DNA of 64,000 nucleotides from Streptosporangium amethystogenes (GTDB lineage: Bacteria > Actinomycetota > Actinomycetes > Streptosporangiales > Streptosporangiaceae): positions 229,764 to 293,763 of the forward strand of contig NZ_JOEQ01000007.1 in assembly GCF_000721075.1 (NCBI RefSeq), in the 5' to 3' direction. Below, in pieces: positions 18,347-36,045 of this stretch. Each line of letters begins with the position of its first letter. Within the stretch, counting starts at the first letter, position 1. The notes below the pieces were generated by a model. That model worked only from the letters and a program-made list of their open reading frames with translations. It did not search any database and had not been told where the DNA came from. Position numbers and translations under genes: made by a program.

Positions 18347-19576
18347 ATGACGGCGCCTTTCGAGTGGACCCCCGACGCCCGCGAGCTGGCCGACCTCGAA
18401 CTGCTGCTCTCCGGCGCCCTCAGCCCGCTGACCGGCTTTCTGAGTTCGGCCGACGCGCACTCCGTGGACGAGCACGGCACGCTCGCCGACGGCACACCGT
18501 GGCCCGCGCCGGTCACCCTCACGCTGCCCGACGACCACCCCGCCGCCCCCGGCGACCGGATCACCCTGCGCGATCCCGAGGGCGCGGCACTGGCCGTGCT
18601 GACCGTCACCGGGCGCGAGGACGGCTTCGTCGCCGGTCCCGTGGCGGGTCTGGACGCTCCCGAGCACGGGCCGTTCGCCCGGCTCCGCCACACCCCGGCG
18701 CGGGTCCGCGAGGAGGTGGGCGAGCAGGAGGCGGTCCTGGCCGTCACCATGCGCGGGCCGCTGGGCGACCTCGGCGAGATCGTGGCGACCGCGAAGGAGC
18801 TGAAGGCGTCGATCCTGCTTCTCCCGCTGGCGTACGGCGAGGGTGGGCCCGCGGTGGTCCGCGCCGCGCTCAAGGCCCGTGACGCGCTGCCGGAGGGCAC
18901 GCTCGTGGCGGTGGTGCCGCTGGCGCCCAGGGAGCCCGCCATCGACCTGGAGCTGCGTGAGCGCGTGGCCGAGGCCTACGGCGCGACCGAGCACCTGGCG
19001 GGTCCGGCCCCCGTGACGATCCCCGGGCCCCCACACCGGCGGGGACTGGTGATCTTCTTCACCGGCCTGTCGGGCTCCGGCAAGTCGACCGTCGCCCGGG
19101 GGCTGCGCGACGCGCTGCTTGAGCGTGGCAGCCGCACGGTGACCTACCTCGACGGAGACGTGGTGCGCCACCTGTTGTCGGCGGGGCTGACCTTCTCCAA
19201 GAAGGATCGCGACCTCAACATCCGCCGCATCGGCTTCGTCGCCGCCGAGGTCGCCAGACACGGTGGCCTGGCGATCTGCGCGCCCATAGCGCCCTACGCC
19301 GCCACCCGCGAGGAGGTGCGCGCGATGGTCGAGGCCGTCGGCGCCGACTTCCTGCTGGTCCACGTCTCCACCCCGCTGGCGGAGTGCGAGCGCCGCGACC
19401 GCAAGGGGCTCTACGCCAAGGCCCGCGCGGGGCTCATTCCCGAGTTCACCGGCGTCTCCGACCCGTACGAGGAGCCGGACGACGCCGACCTGGAGATCGA
19501 CACCACGGGCATCAGCGTGGACCGGGCCGTGCACCAGGTGCTCGACCCGCTGATCCAGGGCGGCTGGATCCGCTGA
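18347..19576 (+). CDS. cysC: adenylylsulfate (APS) kinase with degenerate ATP-sulfurylase N-terminal part
   Basis: Protein of 409 aa. Residues ~235-409 form a complete APS kinase: GLSGSGKSTVARGL (P-loop), YLDGDVVRHLL, FSKKDRDLNIRRIGFVA and CAPIAPYAATREEVR, making PAPS from APS and ATP. Residues 1-~150 resemble the PUA-like N-terminal domain of ATP sulfurylase (SGALSPLTGFLSSADA). The following segment is short and lacks the QxRNP and HxxH motifs, so ATP-sulfurylase activity is unlikely. True sulfurylase subunits (CysD, CysN) lie at 31.5-33.8 kb. The ATG at 18347 follows GGAGCGGGAG; a GTG at 18332 would include it. It probably supplies PAPS to the three sulfotransferases nearby. Confidence 0.9.
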   Translation: MTAPFEWTPDARELADLELLLSGALSPLTGFLSSADAHSVDEHGTLADGTPWPAPVTLTLPDDHPAAPGDRITLRDPEGAALAVLTVTGREDGFVAGPVAGLDAPEHGPFARLRHTPARVREEVGEQEAVLAVTMRGPLGDLGEIVATAKELKASILLLPLAYGEGGPAVVRAALKARDALPEGTLVAVVPLAPREPAIDLELRERVAEAYGATEHLAGPAPVTIPGPPHRRGLVIFFTGLSGSGKSTVARGLRDALLERGSRTVTYLDGDVVRHLLSAGLTFSKKDRDLNIRRIGFVAAEVARHGGLAICAPIAPYAATREEVRAMVEAVGADFLLVHVSTPLAECERRDRKGLYAKARAGLIPEFTGVSDPYEEPDDADLEIDTTGISVDRAVHQVLDPLIQGGWIR

Positions 19577-19612
19577 CGGATCCCGGCCCCGTGGCCCGCG
19601 CCGACGTCAGGA

Positions 19613-20773
19613 TCAGCCCGCGGGAACGGCTGCGTCGAGGTACGGGTCGCGGGCGAGTTCGGCGAAGCTCCGCCGGCCGCCGGGGGTGGTGTCGAAGCGG
19701 GTGTCGCCTCGGGGGGCGCGTGGCGAGTCGAAGTAGACCAGGGCTTTGATTCGCGGGTAGTCGCGGATCTCCTCGCGTACCGAGGCGAAGAACCACTCCT
19801 TGAACCCGGGCCGGTCGTGGCGCTCGAAGACGCCCCACTCGGCGAGCATGACGGGCTTACCCGGGAAGCGCTCACTCATCCAGCGGTAGAACCCGGACCA
19901 CCGGGGGAAGTCGGGCCGGGTCTTGTTGACCAGCCCATCGAAGTTGTGCACCCGGTGGTCGACGTAGGGGTCCATCCCCACCCAGTCGACCACGTCGTCA
20001 CCGGGGTAGAGCCTCTCGAACCAGGGCTCCGACGCCCAGTTGGGCGCCCCCATGTAGGTCATCACGGTGACGGCGTTGGTCACGCCCCCCTGCCGCAGGC
20101 GCCGCACCACGTGCCGGAACATCGCCGCGTAGTCGGCCGCGGACATTCCCGCGCCGCGGGCCTCCCGGACGTCGTTCTCCGGCTCGTGGTGGATCGTGAG
20201 GAAGAACTTCTCCGGGAAGGTCCGCACGATGTGGGCGGCCAGCCGGTCGATCCGCCCGTCCAACGCCCCGTGCGCGATCTGCTCCCAGGTGTGGTCCAGG
20301 GAGGGCTTCCAGTTGATCAGCAGGAGCCTGCGGCCGTCCGGATCGCGGGCGATGGCGCGCTCCGCGGGGGTCGGGAAGAGCTCGTCCCCCCGGTGGTAGA
20401 CGTGCATGATGTCGGCCGGGCGGCCCATCCGCCGCTCGGCTCTGGCCAGCGCCCGCCCGGGAGGCCTCCCGGTGAAGATCTCCGGTGCGACGCCCCACCA
20501 GACGCCACAGGAGGGGACGAGCCTGCCGGTGACCTCGCAGGCGGCCCGTGGACGCTCGCCTGCCGGGCCCGGTACGCGCGCGGGCACCCGGCTCTCCGCT
20601 CCCGGTGAGGTGACCGGCGCCTGCCGGGCACCCGCGGCGTCGGAGGTCTTCGAGGCGACAGAGGTCCGGCCGAGCCCGCTCAGCCCCGCTATGCCCACTC
20701 CGAGAGTGCCCAGTCCCAGCACCAGGACGACAGCCGAACCGACAATTCTCACCATACGCGGAATTATGTCCAT
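19613..20773 (-). CDS. membrane-anchored or secreted GH26-like glycoside hydrolase
   Basis: Protein of 386 aa. An N-terminal hydrophobic segment (VRIVGSAVVLVLGLGTLGVGIAGL, split here as one helix) acts as signal anchor or signal peptide, followed by a Pro/Ala/Ser linker. The catalytic domain resembles GH26 beta-mannanase-type enzymes: FFLTIHHEPEND supplies the probable acid/base Glu, and KPVMLAEWGVFE the probable nucleophile Glu, with VDWVGMDPYVDHR between them. The start is ATG 20773; ATG 20755 is an alternative. It is divergent from the Wzz-like gene and may trim or process the exported polysaccharide. Its substrate is unknown. Confidence 0.82.
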   Translation of the reverse strand: MDIIPRMVRIVGSAVVLVLGLGTLGVGIAGLSGLGRTSVASKTSDAAGARQAPVTSPGAESRVPARVPGPAGERPRAACEVTGRLVPSCGVWWGVAPEIFTGRPPGRALARAERRMGRPADIMHVYHRGDELFPTPAERAIARDPDGRRLLLINWKPSLDHTWEQIAHGALDGRIDRLAAHIVRTFPEKFFLTIHHEPENDVREARGAGMSAADYAAMFRHVVRRLRQGGVTNAVTVMTYMGAPNWASEPWFERLYPGDDVVDWVGMDPYVDHRVHNFDGLVNKTRPDFPRWSGFYRWMSERFPGKPVMLAEWGVFERHDRPGFKEWFFASVREEIRDYPRIKALVYFDSPRAPRGDTRFDTTPGGRRSFAELARDPYLDAAVPAG

Positions 20774-21066
20774 AGTGCCATTTGTCCGATGCACCGGTTC
20801 CTCACAGCCGTCGCGCGCACGCATTCTCCGACCATCACCGGGAAACACCTTCCCATCGGCTGGACGTGCCTCGCCTCCGACTTTACCGGTCCATGCCTGA
20901 GCTCCGGAACGGCCGGTGGGAAATGTCGGATAAATAGTCGTTATCTTACCGTGATTAGCAGGATCGATGCGAAGAAAATCTTGTGTATCGGTTCGTGGAA
21001 ATGGGCGGCCGACCTATAGTTCCTAGGGTTCCCAGCGTCTGTTCGCCGGAGAGGCACCCGCGAAAC

Positions 21067-22284
21067 ATGAGCCCGTCACCGGACGCCCCCGGCCGCCGCG
21101 CAGGCGGAGACCTGGCGGACTACGCGTCGTTCCTCCGCCGCCGATGGCTGATCATCTGCTCTCTGCTCCTCACCGGAGCCGGTGGCGGCGCCGCCCTGCT
21201 ACGGCTCACCCCGCCCTCCTACACCGCCTCCGCTCAGGTCCTGGTGACCGCCACCGGTTCGCCGGAACAGACCAACCAGGTCACCAACCGCCAGCGCGAA
21301 CCGCTCAACCTCGACACCGAGGCCCAGGTCGCCCGGTCCGCGGTGGTCGCGGCGAAGGCCCGCGAGCTGTCCGGCGCTCCCGGCTGTCCCGCCGTGGTCT
21401 CCGTGCCGCCCAACACCTCGGTCCTGGAGATCTCCTGCACCGCCGCCGACCCGAAGGCGGCCGCCTCGGGCGCGAGCGCCTACGCCCTCGCCTACCTGGC
21501 CCAGCGCCGAGAGTCGTCCACCCAGATGCTCACCGCCCAGCTCAAGGCCGTGCTGGTCAAGCTGAGGCAGGTCAACGCGGGCCTCGCCAAGGTCGCCACC
21601 ACGCTTCCCCTGCTGAGCAGGGGCACCACGGAGCGAGCCCTCGCCCTCCAGCGGCAGGACATCCTCGGCCGCCAGGCCCAAACCCTCACCGCCAGGTACG
21701 ACGCCCTCAAGACCATCGCCGTCACCCCCGGATCGGTGATCAGCAAGGCGGTGGCACCCACCGCCCCGAGCGCCCCCCGCCCGCCCCTCTACCTGGGCAG
21801 CGGCCTCATGGCGGGACTGCTCTGCGGGGTCGGGGTCGCCTGGCTCCGTGACCGCCTCGACACCGCCCTGCGGACCACCGCCGACGTCAGGCGTCTGACC
21901 GGTCTCGACGCCCTCGGCGGCGAGGAGATCCGTGGCCTGGCGGGTGCGGTGCTCGTGGTCGCCGTGCCGGGCACCTCCTCGCACGAGGTGAGGAATGCCG
22001 TACGGACCCTGAACGACCGCGGAGTCCGCGTGATCGGCGCCTTCGTCGGCGGCGGCGACGCCCCACCCGATCTCCCGTCCGGCCCCGCGCGGCCCCCGCA
22101 CATCTCGTCCGCGGCACAGCCCGGCGCGGCGCGCCCCAGGAGAGCCGAACGGCCCCTCGCAGGCCTGGCGGGCGGTGACCGGGCCGCACCGGACTCCCCG
22201 GACGCCGAAGTCCCGCCCGGGGCACACGGGAACGTCCCATCCGGACGGCAGGCCACGGCCGGGCGGAGGGGACATCGGCTGTGA
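21067..22284 (+). CDS. Wzz-type chain-length / polysaccharide co-polymerase protein
   Basis: Protein of 405 aa. It has a first membrane helix after DLADYASFLRRRWLI (residues ~28-52), an extracytoplasmic helical domain (TASAQVLVTATG, QVTNRQREPLN, DTEAQVARSAVV), and a second membrane helix near residues 240-260 (YLGSGLMAGLLCGVGVAWL). The cytoplasmic tail is AVLVVAVPGTSSHEVRNAV, which recalls the linked BY-kinase fold but lacks Walker motifs. This is the layout of actinobacterial and Gram-positive Wzz/CapA proteins that control polymer length. The ATG at 21067 is preceded by GGAGAGG. It is the first gene of a tightly overlapped six- or seven-gene operon. Confidence 0.85.
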   Translation: MSPSPDAPGRRAGGDLADYASFLRRRWLIICSLLLTGAGGGAALLRLTPPSYTASAQVLVTATGSPEQTNQVTNRQREPLNLDTEAQVARSAVVAAKARELSGAPGCPAVVSVPPNTSVLEISCTAADPKAAASGASAYALAYLAQRRESSTQMLTAQLKAVLVKLRQVNAGLAKVATTLPLLSRGTTERALALQRQDILGRQAQTLTARYDALKTIAVTPGSVISKAVAPTAPSAPRPPLYLGSGLMAGLLCGVGVAWLRDRLDTALRTTADVRRLTGLDALGGEEIRGLAGAVLVVAVPGTSSHEVRNAVRTLNDRGVRVIGAFVGGGDAPPDLPSGPARPPHISSAAQPGAARPRRAERPLAGLAGGDRAAPDSPDAEVPPGAHGNVPSGRQATAGRRGHRL

Positions 22285-23573
22285 GGAGGCTGCGTCCGGC
22301 CGCCTGGCCGATCGCCGCGCTCCTGGTGGGATATCCACTCTGGTGGGCGCTCGGTTTCGGCGGCCTGTCGGTGGTCGTGGTGGCCCCGGTGATGGCCCTG
22401 ATCCTGCTGCGGAGGCGGCCGATCAGGGCGCCGCGCGGGTTCGGGCTCTGGCTGCTGCTCCTGGCGGGCTACCTGATCAGCGCGCTGATGCTCGGCGAGA
22501 TGCCGCCGGGCACCTACGGCGAGTTCGGCGCCGGGCGGCTCGCCGGCTACCTGATACGGCTCTGCCTCTACCTGTCACTGACGATCATGGTGCTCTACCT
22601 CGGCAACCTGACGGAGGAGGAGCTGCCCCAGCTCACCCTGGTGCGCATGCTCGGCGCGCTGTTCGTCACGACCGTGGCGGGCGGCCTGCTGGGCGTGTTC
22701 GCCCCGCGCGCCGAGTTCACCTCACCGGTCGAGCTGATCCTCCCCGGCTGGATCAGCGGCAACCCCTTCGTTCACAACCTGATCCATCCCACCGCCGCCC
22801 AGGTGCAGAAGGTCCTCGGCCACGCCTCCCCCCGCCCGGAGGCGCCTTTCGAGTGGGCCAACGCCTGGGGCGGCAACATCTCGGTGCTGCTCGTCTGGTT
22901 CGTGATCGGCTGGTGGGTGTACGGCGGCCCGCGCAGGCGCCTGGCCATGATCCCGCTGACCGCGCTGGCCGCGATCCCCGTGGTCTACTCGCTCAACCGC
23001 GGCCTGTGGATAGGGCTCGGCGTCGCCGCCGCGTACGTCCTGGTGCGCCTGGGCACGCGGGCCCGCATCGCGGCCTGCTCGGCTCTGGCCACGGGGACGC
23101 TGGTGTTCGCCCTCAGCCCGCTGCAGACGATGGTGGCCCAGCGACTGGACAGCCCGCACAGCAACGACATCCGCGCCTTCACCGTGTCGGCGACCGTCGC
23201 CGCCGCGGGCACCTCACCGCTCATCGGCTACGGCAACACCAGAAACGCCACGGGCAACCACCGGACGATCACCACCGGCAGGAGCGGCTGGTGTCCCACC
23301 TGCGGCCACCCGCCGCTGGGGAGCGACGGCCAGCTCTGGTACCTGATGATCACGCAGGGCTTCACCGGGGCCGTGCTCTACGTGGCGTTCTTCGCCGGGG
23401 CCGTCCGCCGTCACTGGCGCGACCGGAGCCCGATCGGCATGGCGGGGGTTCTCGTGATGATCCTCACCCTGCTCTACATGTTCGTCTACGACGGGCTGTT
23501 CACACCGCTCAGCCTGTATCTGATCTCCTTCGCGCTGCTCTGGAGGAACTCGATGGAGAGCACCGCCGCATGA
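22281..23573 (+). CDS. O-antigen polymerase/ligase-like membrane protein (Wzy-like)
   Basis: Protein of 430 aa with about 11 hydrophobic helices and one large extracytoplasmic loop. That loop includes GWISGNPFVHNLIHPTAAQ and, later, IGYGNTRNATGNHRTITTG followed by a Cys pair (GWCPTCGHPP). The pattern of N- and C-terminal helix bundles, the Arg in YSLNRGLWIGLG, and the PLIGYG segment fit the O-antigen ligase/polymerase superfamily. It would link repeat units on the outer face of the membrane. The GTG start overlaps the Wzz-like stop (GTGA). The exact role (Wzy versus ligase) cannot be told from sequence. Confidence 0.8.
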   Translation: MRRLRPAAWPIAALLVGYPLWWALGFGGLSVVVVAPVMALILLRRRPIRAPRGFGLWLLLLAGYLISALMLGEMPPGTYGEFGAGRLAGYLIRLCLYLSLTIMVLYLGNLTEEELPQLTLVRMLGALFVTTVAGGLLGVFAPRAEFTSPVELILPGWISGNPFVHNLIHPTAAQVQKVLGHASPRPEAPFEWANAWGGNISVLLVWFVIGWWVYGGPRRRLAMIPLTALAAIPVVYSLNRGLWIGLGVAAAYVLVRLGTRARIAACSALATGTLVFALSPLQTMVAQRLDSPHSNDIRAFTVSATVAAAGTSPLIGYGNTRNATGNHRTITTGRSGWCPTCGHPPLGSDGQLWYLMITQGFTGAVLYVAFFAGAVRRHWRDRSPIGMAGVLVMILTLLYMFVYDGLFTPLSLYLISFALLWRNSMESTAA

Positions 23574-24562
23574 ACGACGCGCGCGCCCGGCTGCGCTACC
23601 TCGACGAGACCATCGACCTGCTGTTCCCCGGTCCCGGCGCACCGAGGCCCTACACCCTGCTCCCCCACCGGCTGCTCCCCCGCAGGCTGGTCCCCCGCGC
23701 CTGGTGGCACCCCGGCGGGAGGCTCATCGTGCCGTCCGGGCAGGACGGCATCGAGAACCACCTGAGCGAGGTGTTCGACACCCCCGTCCGCGTCACGCTG
23801 CGCGTGCGCCCCGCCCTGCGTGTCAACCGCAAGCCGATCCTGGAGGCGCGCGGCCCCGACGGGCCGATCGCCTTCGTGAAGATCGGTGACACCGACCTGA
23901 CCAGGGAGCTCGTCGCGCACGAGGCGCGGACGCTCGACCTGCTCGCCGGCATGCCGCTGAAGACGGTCGTCCCACCCGCCGTACTGCACCACGGATCCTG
24001 GCGCGGCCTGTCCGTGCTGGCGCTGACCCCGCTCCCGGTACGGCGGGGACGGATCCCCCGCGGTGTCCTCACCGACGCGATCGCCGAGATCGCCCACATC
24101 CCCGCGGAGCCGGTCCCGGCGGAGCGTGCCTTCGGAGTCTCCACTCAGGATGCCGGGACAGAGCCGATCCCTGGGCCGATCTCTGGGCCGATCTCCGGGA
24201 GGGGGTTCGCCTGGCACGGTGACCTGACACCCTGGAACATCTCGCGAGGCCCCGACGGGCGGCTGCTGGTCTGGGACTGGGAGCGGTTCGGCACCGGGGT
24301 ACCGCTCGGCTTCGACGCCGTCCACCACTTCTTCCAGCGGGCCCTGCGCCGCGACGATCCGGCCACCGCGGCCAGAGCCTGTGTGGCGCGGGCCCTGCGG
24401 GTCCTGGCCCCGTTCGGGCTGTCGGCCGCCGAATCCAGGCTGACCACCATCCGCTACCTGATCGCGCTCGCCGACCGGCACGCGGCCGACGGCCACGCGC
24501 CCCTCGGACCGCCGGAACGCTGGCTCAACCCCGTCGTCGACTCCCAGGAGACCCTGCTTTGA
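23570..24562 (+). CDS. aminoglycoside-phosphotransferase-fold kinase-like protein
   Basis: Protein of 330 aa. The C-terminal half carries the APH-type catalytic loop WHGDLTPWNIS (Asp base and Mg-binding Asn) and the metal-binding LLVWDWERFG. The N-terminal half has AFVKIGDT, a likely ATP-binding Lys, and EARTLDLLAGM. Such kinases phosphorylate small hydroxyl substrates or sugars. Within this operon a sugar or lipid-linked glycan is the plausible target, though this is inference. A Pro/Gly/Ile/Ser run from a short tandem DNA repeat (24163-24200) lies just before the catalytic loop. Its ATG overlaps the upstream stop (ATGA). Confidence 0.78.
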   Translation: MNDARARLRYLDETIDLLFPGPGAPRPYTLLPHRLLPRRLVPRAWWHPGGRLIVPSGQDGIENHLSEVFDTPVRVTLRVRPALRVNRKPILEARGPDGPIAFVKIGDTDLTRELVAHEARTLDLLAGMPLKTVVPPAVLHHGSWRGLSVLALTPLPVRRGRIPRGVLTDAIAEIAHIPAEPVPAERAFGVSTQDAGTEPIPGPISGPISGRGFAWHGDLTPWNISRGPDGRLLVWDWERFGTGVPLGFDAVHHFFQRALRRDDPATAARACVARALRVLAPFGLSAAESRLTTIRYLIALADRHAADGHAPLGPPERWLNPVVDSQETLL

Positions 24563-24654
24563 AACCCGCGCTGAGCCGTTCGCTCCATGTGGCCACGGGG
24601 GACGCCCGGATCGACCACGCCGACCACGCCGACCACCAGGGGACCCTCCCATGA
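24559..24654 (+). CDS. 31-codon coupled ORF, partial duplicate of the sulfotransferase N-terminus
   Basis: A TTG-started ORF overlaps the kinase-like stop (TTGA) and its own TGA overlaps the ATG of the sulfotransferase (ATGA), so it sits in a fully overlapped chain. Its first 14 codons read (L)KPALSRSLHVATGD, close to the sulfotransferase start MRPVLKRSLHTATW, showing that the 5' end of that gene was duplicated. The rest contains HADHADH from a 9-base tandem repeat. It may be a decayed duplicate now serving only to pass ribosomes from one gene to the next. Translation is not proven. Confidence 0.5.
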   Translation: MKPALSRSLHVATGDARIDHADHADHQGTLP

Positions 24655-25508
24655 GACCCGTACTGAAGCGCTCGCTCCACACGGCCACCTGGGGCCTGGG
24701 ACGCCTCACCTCGGGGAGCCGGGTGCTGCCCTCCTTCCTCATCGTCGGGGCGCAGCGCTGCGGGACCACCTCGCTGTACCGTGCCCTGTCCCAGCACCCG
24801 CTCGTCCTCAAACCGGTGCTGCGCAAGGGCGTGCACTACTTCGACATGGCGTACGACCGGGGTCTGTCCTGGTACCGGGCGCACTTTCCGCTGCGGGTGT
24901 CGGCCTCCGCGCTGGCACACAGGTACGGTTGCCGGCCCCAGGCCTTCGAGTCGTCGCCCTACTACCTGTTCCATCCCCTGGCCGGTTCCCGTATCGCCCG
25001 CGACCTGCCGGGTACCAGGCTGATCGTGCTGGTCCGCGACCCCGTCGAGCGGGCCTACTCCGCGCACGCCCACGAACTGGCCAGGGGGTTCGAGACGGAG
25101 CCGTCCTTCGCCAGGGCGGTGGAGCTGGAGGAGGAGCGGCTGGCCGGGGCGGCGCAGGCCCTGTGTGACTCGCCGCACTCGACGAACCTGCCCCACCGCC
25201 ATCATGCCTATCTGGCCAGGGGCCGCTACGCCGAACAGCTCGCCCGGCTGGAGCCACTGGTCGGCAGGGACCGCCTGCTCGTCATCGACAGCGGCCGGTT
25301 CTTCGCCGAACCGGAGCTCGTCTACGACCGCGTGCTGGCCTTCCTCGGGCTGCCGCATCTCGGCGATCCGGTGTTCGAACGGCACAACGCCCGGACCAGA
25401 CCCGCTCCGATGCCCCGCAGGCTCCGCCGCGAGCTGGCCGGCCGCTTCGAGGAGCAGGACACCCTGCTGACCTCGTGGCTGGGCGGGGAGCCGTCGTGGC
25501 GCCGCTGA
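24651..25508 (+). CDS. sulfotransferase (PAPS-dependent), first of three
   Basis: Protein of 285 aa of the carbohydrate/NDST-like sulfotransferase family. The PAPS 5'-phosphosulfate loop is IVGAQRCGTTSLYRAL near residue 30. The 3'-phosphate site is LIVLVRDPVERAYSAHAHE near residue 125, and the C-terminal PAPS contacts are near LLVIDSGRFFAEP and FLGLP. The substrate pocket includes KGVHYFDMAYDRGLSWYRAHFP, a pattern of glycan sulfotransferases. It presumably transfers sulfate from PAPS to a sugar hydroxyl of the polymer made by this operon. Its start is coupled to the preceding 31-codon ORF, and its end overlaps the flippase gene by 13 bases. Confidence 0.92.
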   Translation: MRPVLKRSLHTATWGLGRLTSGSRVLPSFLIVGAQRCGTTSLYRALSQHPLVLKPVLRKGVHYFDMAYDRGLSWYRAHFPLRVSASALAHRYGCRPQAFESSPYYLFHPLAGSRIARDLPGTRLIVLVRDPVERAYSAHAHELARGFETEPSFARAVELEEERLAGAAQALCDSPHSTNLPHRHHAYLARGRYAEQLARLEPLVGRDRLLVIDSGRFFAEPELVYDRVLAFLGLPHLGDPVFERHNARTRPAPMPRRLRRELAGRFEEQDTLLTSWLGGEPSWRR

Positions 25509-26794
25509 GCCCCACCCGTCTGGCGGGTCTGACCGGGGCCGCGCGGAGCGGGGTGGCGGGGCTGCTGGGGGCGGGTGCCGGGGCGGCCGCTCAGTTCCTG
25601 ACCGTCGTACTGGTCGCCAGGGGGGTGGGTCAGGAGACGGCGGGTGTCTTCTTCTCGGCGACCGCCCTGTGCCTGGCGGTCGCCACGGTCCTGCGGCTGG
25701 ATATGGGGAACGGGCTCGTCTACTTCATCGCCAGGTCCCGTCCTTTCGACTACCGCTGCACCTCCGGCTACGTCCGCGCGGCACTCGTCCCGGTCGCGTC
25801 ACTCTCGCTGGCGGCCGCCTGTGCGGTCATCCTCAGCACCTCCGACCCCGTGCTGTGGGTGCTGGCGATGGCCCTGCCCGCGGTGACGTGCTCGGGCGTC
25901 ATGGTGAGCGCGACCCGGGGGTTCGGCTCGATGCGGCCGACCGTGCTGCTGGACGGCGTACTCCAGCCGCTGGCCCAGCTCGCCCTGGTCGGGACCGTGG
26001 TGCTCGCGGGCCGCGACTCGGTGCCGCTGCTCGCCGCGGCCTGGGCACTGCCGTACCTGCCGGTGCTGCTGCTGGCCTCTGTCTGGTTGCACCGGCGGCT
26101 GCCTCGGACGCCCTACCTGCCGGGCACCGCGCACGACCTGTGGCGCCACACCTGGCCCCGATCGCTGGCGGCTGGAATTCAGGCGGTGTTCCAGCGGCTG
26201 GACATCGTGATCGTGGCGTTGCTGGCCGGGCCGGCCGAGGCCGCCGTCTACACCGCCGCCACCCGTTTCAAGATCGTGGGTCAGCTGGCCGGCCAGGGCC
26301 TGGCGCAGGCCGGCCAACCGAGGCTGGTGCGGGCCCTGGCCGAAGGCGACCTGCCACGTGCCCGGGAGCTGTACCAGTCGGCCACCGCCTGGCTGGTCCT
26401 GCTGACCTGGCCGGTCTGGCTCGGGTACGCGGCACTCGCTCCGTGGCTGCTCAAAGCCGTCTTCGGGGACGGCTACGCCTCCGGTGCACCGGTGGCGATC
26501 GTGCTGGCCGCGACGATGGCGCTCGCCACCGCGTGCGGGATGGCCGACGTGGTGCTGACCGCCGCCGGGCACACCGGCGCCAGCCTGACCAACCTGGCCG
26601 CCGCCGTCGCCACGACCGTGCTGCTCGACCTGCTGCTGATCCCCTCCCTGGGCTCGCTCGGCGCCGCCCTCGGCTGGGCGGGGGGCACGGCGGTCAAGAA
26701 CCTGCTGCCGCTCTGGCACATCCACCGCCGGTACGGCCTGCGGCCCTTCGGCGCGCACAGCCTGGCCGCCCTGAGCCCGTGGCGGGCCTCCTGA
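25496..26794 (+). CDS. Wzx-type polysaccharide flippase (MATE/MOP superfamily)
   Basis: Protein of 432 aa with about 12-14 membrane helices. It begins GVAGLLGAGAGAAAQFLTVVL (as two short helices) with the typical RGVGQETAGVFFSATAL following. It contains QAVFQRLDIVIVALLAGPAEAAVYTAATRF, a recurring pattern in Wzx/RfbX flippases, and ends in a basic tail. The GTG at 25496 is chosen because GGGGAG sits 6 bases upstream and it overlaps the sulfotransferase end by 13 bases. It would move lipid-linked oligosaccharide across the membrane for the Wzy-like polymerase. Confidence 0.87.
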   Translation: MAPLSPTRLAGLTGAARSGVAGLLGAGAGAAAQFLTVVLVARGVGQETAGVFFSATALCLAVATVLRLDMGNGLVYFIARSRPFDYRCTSGYVRAALVPVASLSLAAACAVILSTSDPVLWVLAMALPAVTCSGVMVSATRGFGSMRPTVLLDGVLQPLAQLALVGTVVLAGRDSVPLLAAAWALPYLPVLLLASVWLHRRLPRTPYLPGTAHDLWRHTWPRSLAAGIQAVFQRLDIVIVALLAGPAEAAVYTAATRFKIVGQLAGQGLAQAGQPRLVRALAEGDLPRARELYQSATAWLVLLTWPVWLGYAALAPWLLKAVFGDGYASGAPVAIVLAATMALATACGMADVVLTAAGHTGASLTNLAAAVATTVLLDLLLIPSLGSLGAALGWAGGTAVKNLLPLWHIHRRYGLRPFGAHSLAALSPWRAS

Positions 26795-29004: not shown

Positions 29005-29945
29005 CAGATGCCGTGCCCTCGGTGGTGCAGGACGCTGAGCAGGGCCCGCGCGGGGACCAGGCCGGCCGCCACCGCGAGCGCGATGGGTGCCCGGGGCTCG
29101 CCGTGGCGGGCGGTGAACGCCCGCCAGGCCCAGCGGCCCGCCTCCCGCCGCTGGCCGAGGGCCGCGTGGTGGAAGGCGAGCTGACCGTAGACCCGCGCCG
29201 CGCCGCGCGGATCCACGGCCAGATCAGGGTGCCGGGCGAGCATCCACTGCAGCCCGGCGATCCGGTCGGCCCAGCGGGCCACGTACGAGGAGCCCCCCCA
29301 GCGCACCCGGACCAGAGGCCGGTCGACGTGCACGATGGGGTGCTGGGCGGCGGCGCGCAGCGCCAGGTCCCAGTCCTCGTTCTGGCCCTTGGGGGCGCTC
29401 TCGTCCACCCAGAGCCCGCCGCGCCGGAACACGAACGTCGAGGAGTGCACCATCACCATGCGCGAGCGCACCAGGTGGCGGTAGGTGACGCGACTGGTCC
29501 CCGCCAGGCGGGGAATGCGGCGCGAACCGTACTCGACCTCGATGGCACAACTGGAGAAGCGGGCGTCCGGCTCCGCCTCAAGCGCGGCGACCTGGGCGGC
29601 GACCTTGCCGGGCAGCCACTGGTCGTCGTCGTCGCAGAAGGCGACAAGATCGGTACCGAGGGCCGCGATGCCGGTGTTGCGGGCACCGGGCAGGCCCGGG
29701 GTGAGCCGATTGGCCATCACCCGTACTCCCCGCGAGGGCGCCCCACGCCGGCCGGGTGTCAGTGCCCTGCTGGCCAGGAGGTCGGCCACCTGGTCGGCGA
29801 CCCAGGCCGGATCTCCGCCGTCCACGACCACCACCACCTCGACGGGGCCGGAGTGGTCCTGGCCGAGCACCGCGAGCGTGGCCGCGCGCAGCTGGTCGGG
29901 CCGGTGCCCCCTGGTGGGGATGACGACACCCACCGATGTGTTCAC
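29004..29945 (-). CDS. family 2 glycosyltransferase
   Basis: Protein of 313 aa with a GT-A fold: VGVVIPTRGHRPDQLRAATLAVL at the N-terminus, VEVVVVVDGGDPAWVADQV, AARNTGIAAL-like sequence (LPGARNTGIAALGTDL), and FCDDDDQWLPGKV as the metal- and nucleotide-sugar-binding DxD region. SAPKGQNEDWDLALR supplies the probable catalytic ED motif. The C-terminal helix (ARALLSVLHHR) may be membrane-associated. It overlaps the WecB/TagA gene by 3 bases and the upstream sulfotransferase by 4. It probably builds the repeat unit of the sulfated polysaccharide. Confidence 0.9.
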   Translation of the reverse strand: MNTSVGVVIPTRGHRPDQLRAATLAVLGQDHSGPVEVVVVVDGGDPAWVADQVADLLASRALTPGRRGAPSRGVRVMANRLTPGLPGARNTGIAALGTDLVAFCDDDDQWLPGKVAAQVAALEAEPDARFSSCAIEVEYGSRRIPRLAGTSRVTYRHLVRSRMVMVHSSTFVFRRGGLWVDESAPKGQNEDWDLALRAAAQHPIVHVDRPLVRVRWGGSSYVARWADRIAGLQWMLARHPDLAVDPRGAARVYGQLAFHHAALGQRREAGRWAWRAFTARHGEPRAPIALAVAAGLVPARALLSVLHHRGHGI

Positions 29946-30907
29946 ACGAGCCTCCTGTGATAACCGTACTTGATCATGAGCGGCCAGGTCAGCGCGGTGA
30001 CCAGGCGCAGCTGCCGGGACCCTGCGGCGGCACGCCAGCTGTCGTCCCTGGTCAGCTCGGTGCGGCCGACCGTGAAGCGAACGGGGTTGCCCGAGGCGGT
30101 GTGCGCCGTCGAGAGCTCCGCCCAGTTGCCCGAGAGGAAGTCGAGGCGACAGGAGAGGCCGATCCCGGCGACCAGGCGCCTGAGCGTTTCGGCGGGGGCG
30201 CCGAGCAGGTCCTCATAGCGGACCTGGGTGACCGGGATGCCCCTGCGGGCGAGGAGTCCGAGGCTGAGGTTCTCGCTCAACCAGTGCAGCGAGGTGCGGG
30301 AGGGTGACCAGTGGGTCATCGGACGCCCGTCCTCCGGACGCTCGACCCGCCTGCGCCAGGAGTGCGCGACCGCGCGGGGATCGCGGACCACGTGCACGAC
30401 GTGGACGTCGACCCCGGCCGCCGCCAGGCAGAAGGCCAGCGAGGCGTGCTTGCTTGAGTCGATCACGACCGGGCAGTCGGCGACCTCCCCTGCCGCGTCG
30501 TACAGATCGCGGTGGACGGCGACATACTCGTCCAGCTCGGCGGTGCCGGGTGTCGGCCACCTGCCGTTACCCGCCCGCTCCTCGGCCAGCATCCTGGCCA
30601 GGGCCGGGATGCGCCGGGTGCGGTCGACACGGGCCCTGAGCGCGATCATCCGGTGGGCCAGGTCCGCGGACCAGCCTCCGAACGCGCGCATCCCGACCTT
30701 GTCCCAGAAGGGGCATGTCCCGAAGGGCTCTCCGCATCCGCAGGCCTCGTCCGCGAGCACGCTCCTGGCCCAGAGGTGGACGACCTCGCCGAGCGGCACG
30801 ATGCCGGGGACCTCCCCGAGCAGGCGCTCCAGCAGCGTGGTCCCGCTGCGGCCGAGGCCGCCCAGGAAGACCACCCGAGCAGGTGACGGACTATCAGACA
30901 CAGGCAC
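29942..30907 (-). CDS. sulfotransferase, third of three
   Basis: Protein of 321 aa with PAPS loop VVFLGGLGRSGTTLLERLL at residues ~12-30 and 3'-phosphate site VVHVVRDPRAVAHSWRR at ~172. VIDSSKHASLAFCL is typical of this sulfotransferase subfamily. A Cys cluster (EACGCGEPFGTCPFW, residues ~54-68) is common in bacterial members acting on glycans or lipids. The start is a GTG with AAGGATT upstream. It is the first gene of the leftward sulfotransferase-GT2-WecB operon. The acceptor is unknown. Confidence 0.9.
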   Translation of the reverse strand: MPVSDSPSPARVVFLGGLGRSGTTLLERLLGEVPGIVPLGEVVHLWARSVLADEACGCGEPFGTCPFWDKVGMRAFGGWSADLAHRMIALRARVDRTRRIPALARMLAEERAGNGRWPTPGTAELDEYVAVHRDLYDAAGEVADCPVVIDSSKHASLAFCLAAAGVDVHVVHVVRDPRAVAHSWRRRVERPEDGRPMTHWSPSRTSLHWLSENLSLGLLARRGIPVTQVRYEDLLGAPAETLRRLVAGIGLSCRLDFLSGNWAELSTAHTASGNPVRFTVGRTELTRDDSWRAAAGSRQLRLVTALTWPLMIKYGYHRRLV

Positions 30908-31538: not shown

Positions 31539-32801
31539 CTATCTGGCGTCGACGATCATTCCGGCGCCGACGGTGTTGTTGGTGGCCTCGTCCACGAGAA
31601 TGAAGCCGCCGGTGAGGCGGTTGCGGGCGTAGTCGTCCACGAACAGGGGCTGGGTGACGCGGAGCGAGACGCGTCCGATCTCGTTGAGACCGAGCGAGGA
31701 GGCGGCCTCGTCCCGGTGCAGGGTGTTGACGTCCAGCCGGTAGTGCAGGTCCTTGACCAGGACGCGGGCCGTACGGGTGGTGTGCTTGATGGTCAGCTTG
31801 GCGCGCGGGGCCAGCTTGCTGGAATCCGCCATCCAGCAGATCATCGCCTCCAACTCCTGGGAGACGTGCGGCTGGTTGTTCGGGCGGCAGATCATGTCGC
31901 CGCGCGAGATGTCGATGTCGTCCTCCAGCCGGAGGGTCACCGACATCGGCGGGAACGCCTCGTCGACCGGTCCGTCGAAGGTGTCGATCGACGCGATGCG
32001 CGTGGCCAGGCCCGAAGGCAGGTGCATGACCTCGTCCCCCGGCTTCAGCACGCCTCCGGCGACCTGGCCGGCGTAGCCTCGGTAGTCGTGGAAGGCCGGG
32101 TCGGTGGCCCGCTGCGGGCGGATGACGTACTGCACGGGGAAGCGCACGTCGACCAGGTTGCGGTCGGAGGCGATGTGCACGTGCTCCAGGTGGTGCAGCA
32201 GCGAGGACCCGTTGTACCAGGGGGTGTTCTCCGAGCGTGCCACCACGTTGTCACCGTGCAGCGCCGAGATCGGGATGAATGTCAGGTCCGGCGCGTTCAG
32301 CTTGGAGGCGAAGGCGGTGAACTCCTCGCGGATCTCCTCGAACCGCTCCTGCGAGTAGTCGACCAGGTCCATCTTGTTGACGGCCAGGACCAGGTGCGGC
32401 ACCCGCAGCAGCGTGGTGAGGAAGGCGTGCCGCCGCGACTGCTCCAGCACGCCCTTGCGCGCGTCGATCAGGACGATCGCCAGGTCGGCGGTGGAGGCAC
32501 CGGTGACCATGTTGCGGGTGTACTGGATGTGCCCGGGGGTGTCGGCGATGATGAACTTGCGCTTGGGAGTGGCGAAGTAGCGGTAGGCCACGTCGATGGT
32601 GATGCCCTGCTCCCGCTCGGCCCGCAGGCCGTCGGTGAGGAGTGACAGGTCGGTGTACTCGGTGCCGCGGTCACGGGAGGTGCGCTCGACGGCCTCCAGC
32701 TGGTCCTCGAAGATCGCCTTGGAGTCGAAGAGCAACCGCCCGATGAGCGTCGACTTTCCGTCGTCGACGCTTCCCGCCGTGGCAAAGCGAAGGATGTCCA
32801 T
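31539..32801 (-). CDS. cysN: sulfate adenylyltransferase large subunit (GTPase)
   Basis: Protein of 420 aa, the EF-Tu-like GTPase subunit of ATP sulfurylase, which drives APS formation by GTP hydrolysis. G1 is TAGSVDDGKSTLIGRLL, the switch region EQGITIDVAYRYF, G3 DTPGHIQYTRNMVTGAS, and G4 NKMDLVD. Two beta-barrel domains follow. No C-terminal APS kinase is fused, matching the separate cysC at 18.3 kb. It is the last gene of the leftward operon PHPT-cysQ-cysD-cysN, 79 bases after cysD. Within this cluster its likely job is PAPS supply rather than cysteine synthesis, as no reductase genes are present here. Confidence 0.96.
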   Translation of the reverse strand: MDILRFATAGSVDDGKSTLIGRLLFDSKAIFEDQLEAVERTSRDRGTEYTDLSLLTDGLRAEREQGITIDVAYRYFATPKRKFIIADTPGHIQYTRNMVTGASTADLAIVLIDARKGVLEQSRRHAFLTTLLRVPHLVLAVNKMDLVDYSQERFEEIREEFTAFASKLNAPDLTFIPISALHGDNVVARSENTPWYNGSSLLHHLEHVHIASDRNLVDVRFPVQYVIRPQRATDPAFHDYRGYAGQVAGGVLKPGDEVMHLPSGLATRIASIDTFDGPVDEAFPPMSVTLRLEDDIDISRGDMICRPNNQPHVSQELEAMICWMADSSKLAPRAKLTIKHTTRTARVLVKDLHYRLDVNTLHRDEAASSLGLNEIGRVSLRVTQPLFVDDYARNRLTGGFILVDEATNNTVGAGMIVDAR

Positions 32802-32880: not shown

Positions 32881-33795
32881 CTAGAAGTAGCCCTCCCGCT
32901 TGCGGTCCTCCATGGACGCCTCGGAGGCGCGGTCGTCGGCGCGGGTGGCGCCGCGCTCGGTGATCCGGCTCACCGCGATCTCCTCGATGATCGCCTCGAC
33001 CGTCGCGGCACCCGACTGGACCGCGCCGGTGCAGGTCACGTCGCCGACCGTGCGGTAACGGACCGTCATCTCCTGGAGCGGCTCGTCCTCGTCGCGGATG
33101 ATGAACTCACTGTCGGCCAGCAGCATGCCGTCGCGCTCGAACACCTTGCGGGTGTGGGCGTAGTAGATCGAGGGAATCTCGATGCCCTCGCGCCGGATGT
33201 AGTCCCAGATGTCGAGCTCGGTCCAGTTGGACAGCGGGAACACCCGGATGTGCTCGCCCTTGCGGATTCTGGCGTTGTAGAGGTTCCACAGCTCGGGACG
33301 CTGGTTCTTGGGGTCCCACTGACCGAAGTCGTCACGGAAGGAGAACACCCGCTCCTTGGCGCGGGCCTTCTCCTCGTCGCGGCGGGCACCGCCGAACACG
33401 GCGTCGTACTCGTTCTCCTCGATCGCGTCCAGCAGCGTCGTGGTCTGCAGCCGGTTGCGCGAGGCCCTGCGGCCGGTCTCCTCGACGACGCGCCCGGCGT
33501 CGATGGAGTCCTGGACGCTGGCGACAACCAGGCGCGCACCCAGCTGCGCGGCGCGGCGGTCCCGGAACTCGATGACCTCTGTGAAGTTGTGGCCGGTGTC
33601 GACGTGCATCAGCGGGAAGGGAATCGGCGCGGGCCAGAACGCCTTCTCCGCGATGCGGAGCATGACGATGGAGTCCTTACCGCCGGAGAAGAGCAGACAG
33701 GGACGCTCGAACTCGGCCGCGACCTCACGCATGATGTGGATGGCCTCTGCCTCGAGGACGTCGAGCTGCGACGTGGTGTAGTCGCGCTGAAGCAT
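32881..33795 (-). CDS. cysD: sulfate adenylyltransferase small subunit
   Basis: Protein of 304 aa of the adenine-nucleotide alpha-hydrolase fold that adenylates sulfate with CysN. The PP-loop is LLFSGGKDSIVMLRIA, followed by FPLMHVDTGHNFTEVIEFRD, VFGGARRDEEKARAKERVFSF (read in two parts), FPLSNWTELDIWDYI and the C-terminal SEASMEDRKREGYF that is nearly invariant in CysD. The ATG at 33795 is chosen, with GGAGAG close upstream; a TTG one codon earlier is an alternative. It lies 19 bases after the cysQ stop in the same operon. Confidence 0.96.
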   Translation of the reverse strand: MLQRDYTTSQLDVLEAEAIHIMREVAAEFERPCLLFSGGKDSIVMLRIAEKAFWPAPIPFPLMHVDTGHNFTEVIEFRDRRAAQLGARLVVASVQDSIDAGRVVEETGRRASRNRLQTTTLLDAIEENEYDAVFGGARRDEEKARAKERVFSFRDDFGQWDPKNQRPELWNLYNARIRKGEHIRVFPLSNWTELDIWDYIRREGIEIPSIYYAHTRKVFERDGMLLADSEFIIRDEDEPLQEMTVRYRTVGDVTCTGAVQSGAATVEAIIEEIAVSRITERGATRADDRASEASMEDRKREGYF

Positions 33796-33814
33796 CAAAC
33801 TCTCCTAGCGGGGA

Positions 33815-34582
33815 TTAGCGGTGCAGATCCCGGATTCCAGCGAGCAACGTCGGCGCCAGTCCCGGTAGGGATACAAGGATATCCGGCAATGAGGGGTCGG
33901 GCTGGTTGTAGGCCAGCTGCGAGCCGTCGATACGGCTGGCGTGGGCTCCCGCGGCGAGGGCCACCGCGACGGGCGCGGCGGAGTCCCACTCGTACTGGCC
34001 TCCGGCGTGCACGTAGGCCTCGACCGCTCCGGTGAGCACGGCGGAGATCTTGGCACCCGCCGACCCGATCGGTACCAGGTCCGCGCCGACGAGAGCCGCC
34101 AGTTTCTGGACGAACTCCGGCGGTCGGGTCCTGCTGACCGCGATCCGCGGCCTGGCGCCCGCCTCGGGGGCGGGCCACACCGGAGGTTCGACGGTGGAGA
34201 GCGTACGGCCCTGGGCCGGTAGCGCGACGGCACCGGCCGTCAGCCTGCCACGCTCCCAGAGCGCCACGTGGACCGCCCAGTCCTCACGGCCCTCCTCGGC
34301 GAACTCTCGGGTGCCGTCCAGCGGGTCGACGATCCAGACCCGCTCGGCACGGAGCCTGCGCGGGTCAAGACGCTCCTCGCTGGTCGCCTCCTCGGACAGC
34401 ACGCTGTCGTCCGGGCGCAGCCGCGCCAGAGCCTCCATCAGGAACAGGTGAGAGGCGATGTCACCCTCCTTGCGCAGCTCGGAGGGGTTGTCGAAACCCC
34501 GCTCCGCGCGCAGGGCCGCCAGCTTCTCGCCGGCCGTCGTCGCCAACTCCGCGGCGAGTATGTGATCGTCGCGAACGGTCAT
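33815..34582 (-). CDS. cysQ: 3'(2'),5'-bisphosphate nucleotidase (PAP phosphatase)
   Basis: Protein of 255 aa of the inositol-monophosphatase superfamily. Metal-binding motifs are SEEATSEE, WIVDPLDGTREFAEEGREDWAVH (split at DPLDGT) and GGQYEWDSAAPVAVALAAG. It degrades 3'-phosphoadenosine 5'-phosphate, the inhibitory product of sulfotransferases, to AMP. Its ATG overlaps the stop of the upstream priming glycosyltransferase (ATGA), and cysD follows. This genetic coupling of polymer initiation with PAP removal supports a dedicated sulfation role. Inositol or fructose-bisphosphate phosphatase is less likely given the neighbours. Confidence 0.93.
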   Translation of the reverse strand: MTVRDDHILAAELATTAGEKLAALRAERGFDNPSELRKEGDIASHLFLMEALARLRPDDSVLSEEATSEERLDPRRLRAERVWIVDPLDGTREFAEEGREDWAVHVALWERGRLTAGAVALPAQGRTLSTVEPPVWPAPEAGARPRIAVSRTRPPEFVQKLAALVGADLVPIGSAGAKISAVLTGAVEAYVHAGGQYEWDSAAPVAVALAAGAHASRIDGSQLAYNQPDPSLPDILVSLPGLAPTLLAGIRDLHR

Positions 34583-36045
34583 CAGTATGCTCCAGCTCCT
34601 CGCGCGACAGCCGACCAGGTCTTCCACAGGATCTGCAGGTCCAGCATGAGGGACCAGCTCTCCACGTAACGCAGGTCCAACCGTACCGATTCCTCCCAGG
34701 ACAGGTCAGAGCGACCGCTCACCTGCCACAGACCGGTCATGCCCGGTTTGACCAGCAACCGACGGCGGACATCGTCACCGTACCCGGCCACCTCCTCCGG
34801 TAGTGGCGGCCGGGGGCCCACCAGGGACATGTGTCCCAGCAGCACGTTGATCAGCTGGGGCAGCTCGTCCAGCGAATGCCGGCGCAGCCGGGCACCCAGC
34901 GGGGTCACCCTCGGATCGTTCTTGATCTTGAAGAGCGGGCCCCGTCCGTCACTGGACAGGGTGATCTTCCGGCGCTCGGCGTCGGCGCGCATGGTCCGGA
35001 ACTTGTAGATCGTGAACTCCGCGCCGTCGCGGCCCACCCTCGTCTGCCGGAAGAACGCCGGCCCGGGCCCGGAGGCCCGCACGGCCGCCGCCACCCCCAC
35101 CAGCAGCGGGAGCAGCACCGCCAGCAGCACCCCGGCGCCGATCCGGTCGAACAGGTTCTTGACCACCTGGCGCAGGCCGGAGATCTCGGGGTGGTCCACG
35201 TGCAGCAGCGGCAGCCCCGCCGCCGGACGGATGGTGATCCTCGGCCCGGCCACCTCCATCAGCGCGGGGGCCACGACCAGGTCCGTGTCGGTCTTCTCCA
35301 GCCGCCAGGCCAGTCGCCGCAGCGCCACCCCGTCCATCTCCGGGCAGGCGAGCACGGCCACGGTGTCGGCGTGGACCTGCCCGACCGCGAGCGCGACGTC
35401 GGAGAAGTCGCCGAGAACCGGCACGCCCTCCACATCGCCCGTCCCGTCGCGCGGGGCGCAGGCCCCGACGACCTCCATGCCGTGGTAACGCTCCCGGCGG
35501 AACCCGCGGACCAACTCGGCGATCGCCACCCGGTGGCCCACCGCCACCACTCGCCGCATGCACCTGCCCCGGGCCCGCCTGCGATGCAGGGAGCGGCGCA
35601 GCCCGTAGCGCGCCAGGAGGGTGAGCAGCGTCGTCAGCGGGAGTGCCAGCACCACGTAACCGCGGGCCACCTCGGTCTTGGTGAGGTAGGCGCCGACGGC
35701 GAGGGCGGCGGTGAGCATGAAGCCGCACTGGAGGATCCGCTGGAACTCCTCCGAGCCCAGGCCGATGAGCCGCGGCTCGTAGGCGCGGTTCAGCGCGACC
35801 ACGCAGACCCAGACGACGGGCAGGGCGGCACTCAGCATGACGTACGGGAAAACGTAGGCGGTAACCTCGCCGAATCGAACGAGCAGCGCGAGGGCTCCGG
35901 CCAGGGCGGCGCAGACGGTGTCGGCGGCGAGGGCCATCGCGCGGTGCCCCCGTACCCAGTCCGGCATCTGACGGCGCGAGACCGGCACGACTCCGGCTCC
36001 GGACCCGGCTCCGGATACGGCCTGGACTGCGGTCACGTCGCGCAC
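34582..36045 (-). CDS. polyprenyl-phosphate sugar-phosphate transferase (priming glycosyltransferase)
   Basis: Protein of 487 aa. It has four N-terminal membrane helices (residues ~33-140), a CoA-binding-like cytoplasmic domain (RRVVAVGHRVAIAELV), a fifth hydrophobic helix (GAGVLLAVLLPLLVGVAAAV, about residue 310), and a bacterial sugar transferase domain. That domain contains FFRQTRVGRDGAEFTIYKFRTM (catalytic Arg/Lys region), RLRRHSLDELPQLINVL and VKPGMTGLWQVSGRSDLSW. It transfers sugar-1-phosphate to undecaprenyl phosphate, the first step of exopolysaccharide assembly. The GTG start is preceded by GGGGGAG. It heads the operon with cysQ, cysD and cysN. Confidence 0.93.
   Translation of the reverse strand: MRDVTAVQAVSGAGSGAGVVPVSRRQMPDWVRGHRAMALAADTVCAALAGALALLVRFGEVTAYVFPYVMLSAALPVVWVCVVALNRAYEPRLIGLGSEEFQRILQCGFMLTAALAVGAYLTKTEVARGYVVLALPLTTLLTLLARYGLRRSLHRRRARGRCMRRVVAVGHRVAIAELVRGFRRERYHGMEVVGACAPRDGTGDVEGVPVLGDFSDVALAVGQVHADTVAVLACPEMDGVALRRLAWRLEKTDTDLVVAPALMEVAGPRITIRPAAGLPLLHVDHPEISGLRQVVKNLFDRIGAGVLLAVLLPLLVGVAAAVRASGPGPAFFRQTRVGRDGAEFTIYKFRTMRADAERRKITLSSDGRGPLFKIKNDPRVTPLGARLRRHSLDELPQLINVLLGHMSLVGPRPPLPEEVAGYGDDVRRRLLVKPGMTGLWQVSGRSDLSWEESVRLDLRYVESWSLMLDLQILWKTWSAVARGAGAY

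Follow-up and report, generated by a model that had tools for sequence, protein, structure and literature searches.

The closest described counterpart of the locus reported here is wps-1 of Actinoplanes missouriensis, a gene cluster predicted to make a sulfated sporangium polysaccharide (Tezuka and Ohnishi, June 2026, PMC13390465). Its authors state that sulfated bacterial polysaccharides were known from cyanobacteria only; marine bacterial examples have also been published, and the product of the cyanobacterial xss cluster was chemically shown to contain sulfate (PMC8205485). We examined a window of 64,000 nucleotides from Streptosporangium amethystogenes (contig NZ_JOEQ01000007.1, positions 229,764 to 293,763 of the forward strand), within which a 16-gene glycan/sulfate locus occupied window positions 17485-36045, flanked by mfd and pth. 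The organism is a soil bacterium, and its genus forms spore sacs. The comparisons given below make it likely, in our judgement, that the locus is of a conserved wps-1 type, serves the synthesis of a sulfated Wzx/Wzy glycan and includes its own source of 3'-phosphoadenosine 5'-phosphosulfate (PAPS).

The first genes of wps-1 are wpsA (family 2 glycosyltransferase, GT2), wpsB (sulfotransferase), wpsC (GT26), wpsD (DUF4262), wpsE (family 26 glycoside hydrolase, GH26) and wpsF (methyltransferase); the remaining ones are wpsG (Wzx), wpsH (sulfotransferase), wpsI (kinase-like), wpsJ (Wzy) and wpsK (Wzz), followed by AMIS_7390, described in print as an enzyme forming adenosine 5'-phosphosulfate (APS). 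Sporangia were squashed when wpsA, wpsC, wpsG, wpsH, wpsI, wpsJ or wpsK was deleted, deletion of wpsE or wpsF gave other sporangium abnormalities, and deletion of wpsD had no effect; 10 of the 11 wps-1 genes, and the APS kinase gene, were required for normal sporangia. Removal of AMIS_7390 caused severe sporangium defects, "unexpected" to the authors, with no visible change in growth (all PMC13390465).

Genes of the window were called from codon-position GC, and domains were assigned by Pfam and NCBIfam scans of the window proteins. All genes named in an earlier note on this DNA were recovered at or near the positions given there, and the Pfam scan of proteins encoded in 17485-36045 found neither sulfite reductase nor cysH among them. 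The earlier gene list was right, and to it we add a methyltransferase, a GH26-like protein, an APH-like kinase and a sulfurylase-like domain on CysC. A Wzx/Wzy glycan locus with sulfotransferases and a PAPS supply, as the note proposed, is still the best reading, and the wps-1 authors independently predicted the same for their cluster (PMC13390465). The first half of the locus runs methyltransferase, CysC, GH26-like (minus strand), Wzz, Wzy, APH-like kinase, sulfotransferase ST1, Wzx and sulfotransferase ST2; the second half, all on the minus strand, runs GT26, GT2, sulfotransferase ST3, CysN, CysD, CysQ and the priming transferase (Table 1).

For direct comparison, an Actinoplanes genome (G705) was taken by inference as A. 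missouriensis 431, and its wps-1 neighbour as AMIS_7390; genes of the wps-1 kinds stood there in the published order. Ten of the 16 window proteins matched the wps-1 region at E<=1e-3, while the methyltransferase, ST2, CysN, CysD, CysQ and the priming transferase had no match there at this threshold. Identity was 57% for ST1/WpsH and for GT26/WpsC, 52% for ST3/WpsB and for GT2/WpsA, 45% for Wzx, 40% for Wzy, 39% for the kinase, 36% for Wzz and 63% for the APS kinase domain. The GH26-like protein was 44% identical to the product of a gene beyond the A. missouriensis APS kinase and 26% identical to WpsE.

The arrangement was then followed through relatives, for which the note had proposed a synteny search. 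Among 20 relatives fetched, 18 reach CysN, and in these the order methyltransferase-CysC-GH26-Wzz-Wzy-kinase-ST1-Wzx-ST2-GT26-GT2-ST3-CysN was kept, with four deviations (L049 without a GH26 match; L059, L060 and L061 with 3-5 kb extra between ST2 and GT26). L051 and L065 stop at contig ends, and their order agreed up to there. Conserved synteny of this kind excludes a chance grouping. L060 and L196, apparently one S. pseudovulgare record, carry extra genes between ST2 and GT26 (by eye sigma-factor-like and TetR-like), and additional DNA stands at this point in G007 and G023 too. Wzy was matched in 141/200 family genomes (E<=1e-3), and 20 more divergent family loci, picked around Wzy matches, had an ST1 match in every case. 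Two Streptosporangiaceae genomes (L115, L116) have a set of genes distantly resembling wps (Wzy 28-31%, ST1 36-38% identity), which in one of them (G131, L116) is in addition to a close relative of the window Wzy.

A wider set of 80 named loci comprised the best of at least 500 relatives scored, ranked by likeness to ST1, a ranking that favours the window's kin; several are cut by contig ends. ST1 was found in 80, the kinase in 79, Wzy in 78, Wzx in 76 and Wzz in 75, with Wzz-Wzy-kinase-ST1-Wzx unbroken in 69 and kinase-ST1-Wzx in 73. GH26 was found in 64, ST3, GT26 and GT2 in 60 each, CysC in 55, ST2 in 41, CysN, CysD and CysQ in 27 each, and the priming transferase in 26.

The note had held that such a system would be unusual for an actinomycete, and here the counts went the other way. 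ST1 was matched at E<=1e-30 in 110/394 genomes of the class and at E<=1e-60 in 68/394; at the latter threshold it was present in 129/150 genomes of the G389 family (to which the Actinoplanes genome G705 belongs) and phylum-wide in 25/396 genomes, 23 of them of other classes. These counts include distant copies, possibly paralogues, and gene neighbours were viewed within the class. Two well-sampled class groups (f20/g41 and f6/g27) gave no ST1 match. Wzy was nearby at 18 of 20 ST1 places from other families of the class; L158 and L160 adjoin mfd, and L157 adjoins pth. Recent horizontal acquisition as an island was considered and rejected, given that mfd or pth adjoins the locus in relatives and in some loci of other families (including L186), as was restriction to sporangium-forming genera, given Glycomyces, Micromonospora and Thermomonospora among the named matches.

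All four components of a Wzx/Wzy-dependent pathway, the priming transferase, flippase, polymerase and co-polymerase, were present in the locus. The priming transferase scored 417.7 bits with TIGR03025 (cut-off 295.6); Wzy_C scored 25.5 bits on the polymerase, under the Pfam gathering score of 31.7 for a single protein. Overlaps of a few bases joined Wzz/Wzy, Wzy/kinase, Wzx/ST2, GT2/GT26, ST3/GT2 and priming transferase/CysQ; at the last of these the CysQ start codon overlaps the stop codon of the transferase gene, so the priming enzyme appears coupled to the sulfate-activation genes. By analogy with the A. missouriensis sporangium phenotypes, an anionic matrix that surrounds spores or aerial hyphae is the most likely product. 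The product could instead be a wall-linked glycopolymer, a capped oligosaccharide or a glycolipid, with the Wzy_C protein acting as a ligase, and this we consider unlikely but worth keeping in view: the Wzy_C family includes ligases, and the locus also occurs in Glycomyces, Micromonospora and Nonomuraea, genera that are not known to form sporangia. A Wzz-type protein in 75/80 named loci points rather to control of chain length, and the Pfam scan of locus proteins showed no LytR-CpsA-Psr domain.

We examined the genome for its sources of activated sulfate. The search with PF01583 gave a single APS kinase, CysC of the locus, and each of 15 other genomes of the genus likewise had one CysC match, which was the locus gene. 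PF01507 gave two matches, CysD of the locus and CysH on contig C14, where CysH adjoins a sulfite/nitrite-reductase-like gene; Sat (PF01747) had no match in the whole genome. The second cysDN/cysC set that the note had suggested looking for near cysH was thus not found (one CysD, one APS kinase, no Sat; CysN had no separate search), and a second CysDN or Sat set dedicated to cysteine was rejected. With one CysD and no Sat, CysDN must also supply APS to CysH. CysH carries two cysteine pairs, which we take to be of the iron-sulfur type; it passed TIGR02055 (APS_reductase) narrowly, at 237.0 vs 235.3 bits (margin 1.7), and failed TIGR02057 (PAPS_reductase), at 171.6 vs 254.2 bits. An APS-reductase-type CysH together with a sole APS kinase would mean that PAPS is required by sulfotransferases only. 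APS from CysDN is therefore read as common to cysteine synthesis and CysC, and the PAPS-forming step alone looks free of cysteine synthesis. The "own PAPS cycle" of the earlier note stood as to the sole APS kinase and did not stand as to CysDN, which is common to cysteine synthesis, nor fully as to PAPS, which probably has other users. The note had also named a case that would tell against its idea, namely that these be the only cysDN/cysC of the genome and needed simply for cysteine growth; the only cysD and cysC found are indeed those of the locus, but the second part is unlikely for cysC.

The same logic bears upon A. missouriensis. In G705, PF01583 found the wps-1 neighbour as sole APS kinase. 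Each of 5/5 Actinoplanes-group genomes, G705 included, had a single strong APS kinase (E<=1e-50), which lay about 4.5 kb from ST1; weak extra matches (E 1e-8 to 1e-3) occurred among the four other than G705. CysD and CysH lay away from the wps-1 locus in this group, and CysH had two cysteine pairs in 5/5. Because the APS kinase is sole and CysD and CysH are elsewhere, deletion of AMIS_7390 should abolish PAPS and spare cysteine synthesis, and the sporangium defect of the mutant should thus be explained by loss of PAPS. AMIS_7390 is probably better described as a PAPS-forming kinase than as an APS-forming enzyme.

These results also bear on the possibility that the cys genes serve mainly cysteine assimilation, with the glycan genes as chance neighbours and the sulfotransferases of other function. 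Cysteine from sulfate must use CysDN, the only ATP sulfurylase found, and CysH also passed a model named phosphoadenylyl-sulfate reductase. Its two cysteine pairs and its TIGR scores nevertheless imply that an APS kinase should be dispensable for cysteine; CysC, CysD, CysN and CysQ hold their positions around the same glycan genes in relatives; the sole strong APS kinase of the Actinoplanes group stands near ST1, with cysD and cysH elsewhere; and the A. missouriensis APS kinase mutant was affected in sporangia and not visibly in growth (PMC13390465). We regard this explanation as improbable.

CysC consists of an ATP-sulfurylase-like N-domain (PUA_2) followed by an APS kinase. The kinase part covered PF01583 at full length with its nucleotide loop intact, as in a PAPS-forming kinase, and the N-terminal part aligned with ATP sulfurylases. 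The alignment was made from 101 open frames and the window protein, with 16 lacking the searched start motif excluded; its 86 rows were 81 distinct sequences, some genomes being present twice. The motif QxRNPxHxxH of the fungal enzyme was intact in 0/86 rows. In the window clade (e.g. VTMRGPLGD) both motif histidines were lost, and the sulfurylase domain was about 80 residues shorter than the Actinoplanes form, its C-terminal part being gone; the Actinoplanes CysC retained the first histidine and had Q at the second (HxxQ). PRK05537-type fusions (PDB 3cr8, 2gks) have the same order, sulfurylase-like then APS kinase; in contrast to these, window CysC scored 354 against a cut-off of 669 and lacked both histidines as well as the C-terminal section of the sulfurylase domain. 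A bifunctional sulfurylase/kinase was therefore rejected for the window protein, which probably is not a sulfurylase; its sulfurylase-like domain may be structural or regulatory.

The PAPS-binding motifs, which we take to be the 5'-PSB and 3'-PB, showed almost no variation when ST1 (16 sequences), ST3 (21) and ST2 (13) were aligned. A profile of ST1 run against the PDB matched an Alicyclobacillus sulfotransferase first, then heparan-sulfate 3-O- and N-sulfotransferases. The single-sequence PDB search with ST3 gave no match; its structure model (mean predicted local distance difference test, pLDDT, 89.6) matched sulfotransferases in Foldseek, many of them bound to 3'-phosphoadenosine 5'-phosphate (PAP). 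Across the genome, Sulfotransfer_3 gave 13 match rows, 4 on contig C7 being the three locus sulfotransferases and the other 9 being eight sulfotransferase-like genes outside the locus. Two adjacent sulfotransferases at G000:C10:153007-154648 had Sulfotransfer_3 scores far above those of the locus and possibly belong to a second sulfated product. We give little credence to the idea that the sulfotransferases act on a secondary metabolite or lipid and leave the polymer unsulfated: substrate specificity is unreadable from sequence and some of the structures matched to ST3 by Foldseek are tyrosylprotein and polyketide-pathway sulfotransferases, but in 73/80 named loci ST1 stands between the genes for the kinase and Wzx, its profile points to glycosaminoglycan sulfotransferases, and deletion of wpsH gave the same squashed sporangia as deletions of Wzy, Wzx and glycosyltransferase genes (PMC13390465).

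The window kinase had no Pfam or NCBIfam match, and APH was found in 2 of 22 family members; the HGD...N...D residues were invariant across the 22 sequences. Its model (pLDDT 84.8) gave fructosamine-3-kinase-like and APH folds as best Foldseek matches, weak to moderate ones (E 5e-6 to 1e-4, template-modelling score 0.4-0.55, root-mean-square deviation about 8). The substrate, at a guess, is the repeat-unit sugar or a precursor.

Judged by homology, the pathway would run as follows. CysDN would make APS, which CysC would phosphorylate to PAPS. The priming transferase, GT26 and GT2 would assemble an oligosaccharide on undecaprenyl phosphate, with a minimum of three sugars if every enzyme contributes one, and the methyltransferase and APH-like kinase may modify the oligosaccharide or its precursors. 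ST1, ST2 and ST3 would sulfate it, most likely as the lipid-linked unit in the cytoplasm because PAPS is cytosolic. Wzx would flip the unit, Wzy would polymerise it under control of Wzz, and the GH26 protein would trim or remodel the glycan outside the cell. CysQ would hydrolyse PAP. APS would be shared with the APS-reductase-type CysH, and PAPS reserved for sulfotransferases.

Several points weigh against a sulfated wps-1-type glycan with its own PAPS source. Sulfate ester in any such actinomycete polymer is so far a prediction, as the wps-1 authors themselves state; in their work the wpsB (ST3-type) mutant had normal-looking sporangia with reduced spore release, transcription of AMIS_7390 was not raised with wps-1 on day 3, and whole-cluster deletions were uncomplemented (PMC13390465). 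Wzy_C alone cannot tell a polymerase from a ligase. PDB 3cr8, bifunctional according to its depositors, also carries HxxQ in place of the fungal HxxH, so the Actinoplanes CysC is less certainly inactive than the window form. CysH also passed TIGR00434 and NF002537, the latter, a phosphoadenylyl-sulfate reductase model, with 267.9 against a cut-off of 154. The eight other sulfotransferase-like genes probably give PAPS further possible users. CysQ fell under the strict TIGR01331 CysQ cut-off (105.6 vs 228.8 bits); its best PDB match, which speaks in favour, was the 5djf group, whose annotation is 3'-phosphoadenosine 5'-phosphate phosphatase (E 4e-67). Also in favour, an APS kinase (E<=1e-20) was present in 66/68 ST1-positive class genomes vs 232/326 without ST1 (Fisher p 3e-7), and in 30/32 vs 227/321 with the window's family removed (p 0.002), but this association ignores shared ancestry and is supportive only; the ST1-positive genomes G288 and G339, which are split into about 470 and 580 contigs, had no APS kinase match.

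Table 1. Genes of the glycan/sulfate locus and its borders, in window positions
Feature	Positions	Strand	Basis or remark
mfd, border on one side	13579..17157	-	
S-adenosylmethionine-dependent methyltransferase	17485..18246	+	Methyltransf_11; adjoins CysC in 20/20 relatives
CysC, sulfurylase-like N-domain (PUA_2) + APS kinase	18347..19576	+	Pfam; motif alignments
GH26-like glycoside hydrolase, secreted-looking	19613..20848	-	nearest solved structures annotated endoglucanase H
Wzz-type chain-length determinant (WpsK-like)	20983..22284	+	profile scans; wps-1 match
Wzy-type polymerase (WpsJ-like)	22281..23573	+	Wzy_C E 1.3e-5; wps-1 match
APH-fold kinase (WpsI-like)	23570..24562	+	HGDxxxWN...WDWER; structure model; wps-1 match
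ST1 sulfotransferase (WpsH-like)	24651..25508	+	Sulfotransfer_3 E 2e-11; wps-1 match
Wzx-type flippase (WpsG-like)	25475..26794	+	Pfam; wps-1 match
ST2 sulfotransferase, extra vs A. missouriensis wps-1	26791..27705	+	Sulfotransfer_3 E 4e-12
GT26 (WecG/TagA/CpsF, WpsC-like), long N-terminal extension	27721..29004	-	Pfam; wps-1 match
GT2 glycosyltransferase (WpsA-like)	29004..29945	-	Pfam; wps-1 match
ST3 sulfotransferase (WpsB-like)	29942..30907	-	Sulfotransfer_3 E 3e-13; structure model; wps-1 match
CysN, ATP sulfurylase large subunit	31539..32801	-	Pfam, NCBIfam
CysD, ATP sulfurylase small subunit	32881..33798	-	Pfam, NCBIfam; sole CysD found in the genome
CysQ, PAP phosphatase-like	33815..34582	-	Pfam; PDB match
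Polyprenyl-phosphate sugar-1-phosphate transferase (priming)	34582..36045	-	Bac_transf + CoA_binding_3; TIGR03025
pth-rplY-prs-glmU, other border, beyond an exonuclease-like gene	37002..41295	-	

By eye, units of roughly 60 bases seem to repeat in tandem at 36640-37000, between the exonuclease-like gene and pth. A multi-pass membrane protein that by eye resembles a TauE/SafE-type (sulfite/sulfate) transporter, with no match in the window, had homologues in L196:3758-4711, where it lies between CysC and the GH26 gene, in 23 other named loci of the 80, and in 15/20 loci of L047-L066. The Glycomyces loci L239, L245, L246, L252, L258, L261 and L268 had the core cluster and no CysC match within the fetched DNA.

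If the proposed reading is true, many Actinomycetota can make an overlooked sulfated polysaccharide centred on a heparan-type sulfotransferase, and the unexplained AMIS_7390 phenotype becomes testable as that of a mutant without PAPS, its polymer unsulfated. Re-annotation of AMIS_7390 from APS-forming sulfurylase to PAPS-forming kinase is suggested, the GH26-type gene beyond it and a priming transferase are predicted as further pathway members, and the enzymes could serve in making sulfated sugars. More tentatively, and leaning somewhat against it ourselves, we raise the idea of an ancient, widely inherited, glycosaminoglycan-like sulfated surface glycan across Actinomycetota, its core genes being those for polymerase, kinase, heparan-type sulfotransferase and flippase, often with the sole PAPS source alongside. 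PAPS would then serve the sulfation of surface and other molecules and not cysteine synthesis, and CysC's dead sulfurylase domain would act as a sensor or scaffold that links PAPS production to CysDN or the glycan machinery. The wps-1 counterpart prediction was already in print in June 2026 (PMC13390465); in the literature searched on actinomycete sulfated glycans, the other papers being judged by title and start of abstract, no further report on the locus was found. What the present analysis adds is the argument that PAPS has a single source in the genome, the degeneration of the CysC sulfurylase domain, a proposed reason for the AMIS_7390 phenotype, the association with a priming transferase and CysDNQ, and the wide occurrence in the phylum.

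Among other known systems, xss (synechan) of Synechocystis PCC 6803 resembles the window locus as a Wzx/Wzy/polysaccharide co-polymerase cluster with two sulfotransferases; it differs in being plasmid-borne, with eight glycosyltransferases and two-component control, its gene list holds no PAPS genes, and "PAPS" does not occur in the main text (PMC8205485). Marine, Gram-negative Vibrio KMM 8419 and Cobetia KMM 1449 (PMC11641403, PMC11766843) have capsules that are sulfated bacterial polysaccharides with biosynthetic clusters; these and xss are likened to the locus by description, not by sequence. As compared with wps-1, the window locus has ST2, the priming transferase and CysD/CysN/CysQ in addition, gives no match to WpsD (DUF4262) or WpsF (E 1e-3), and sits between mfd and pth; its methyltransferase adjoins CysC, and WpsF was not treated as a core feature. 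What the two have in common is the core order Wzz-Wzy-kinase-ST1-Wzx, together with GT2, GT26, ST3, a GH26-type protein and a neighbouring protein of the sulfurylase/APS kinase family.

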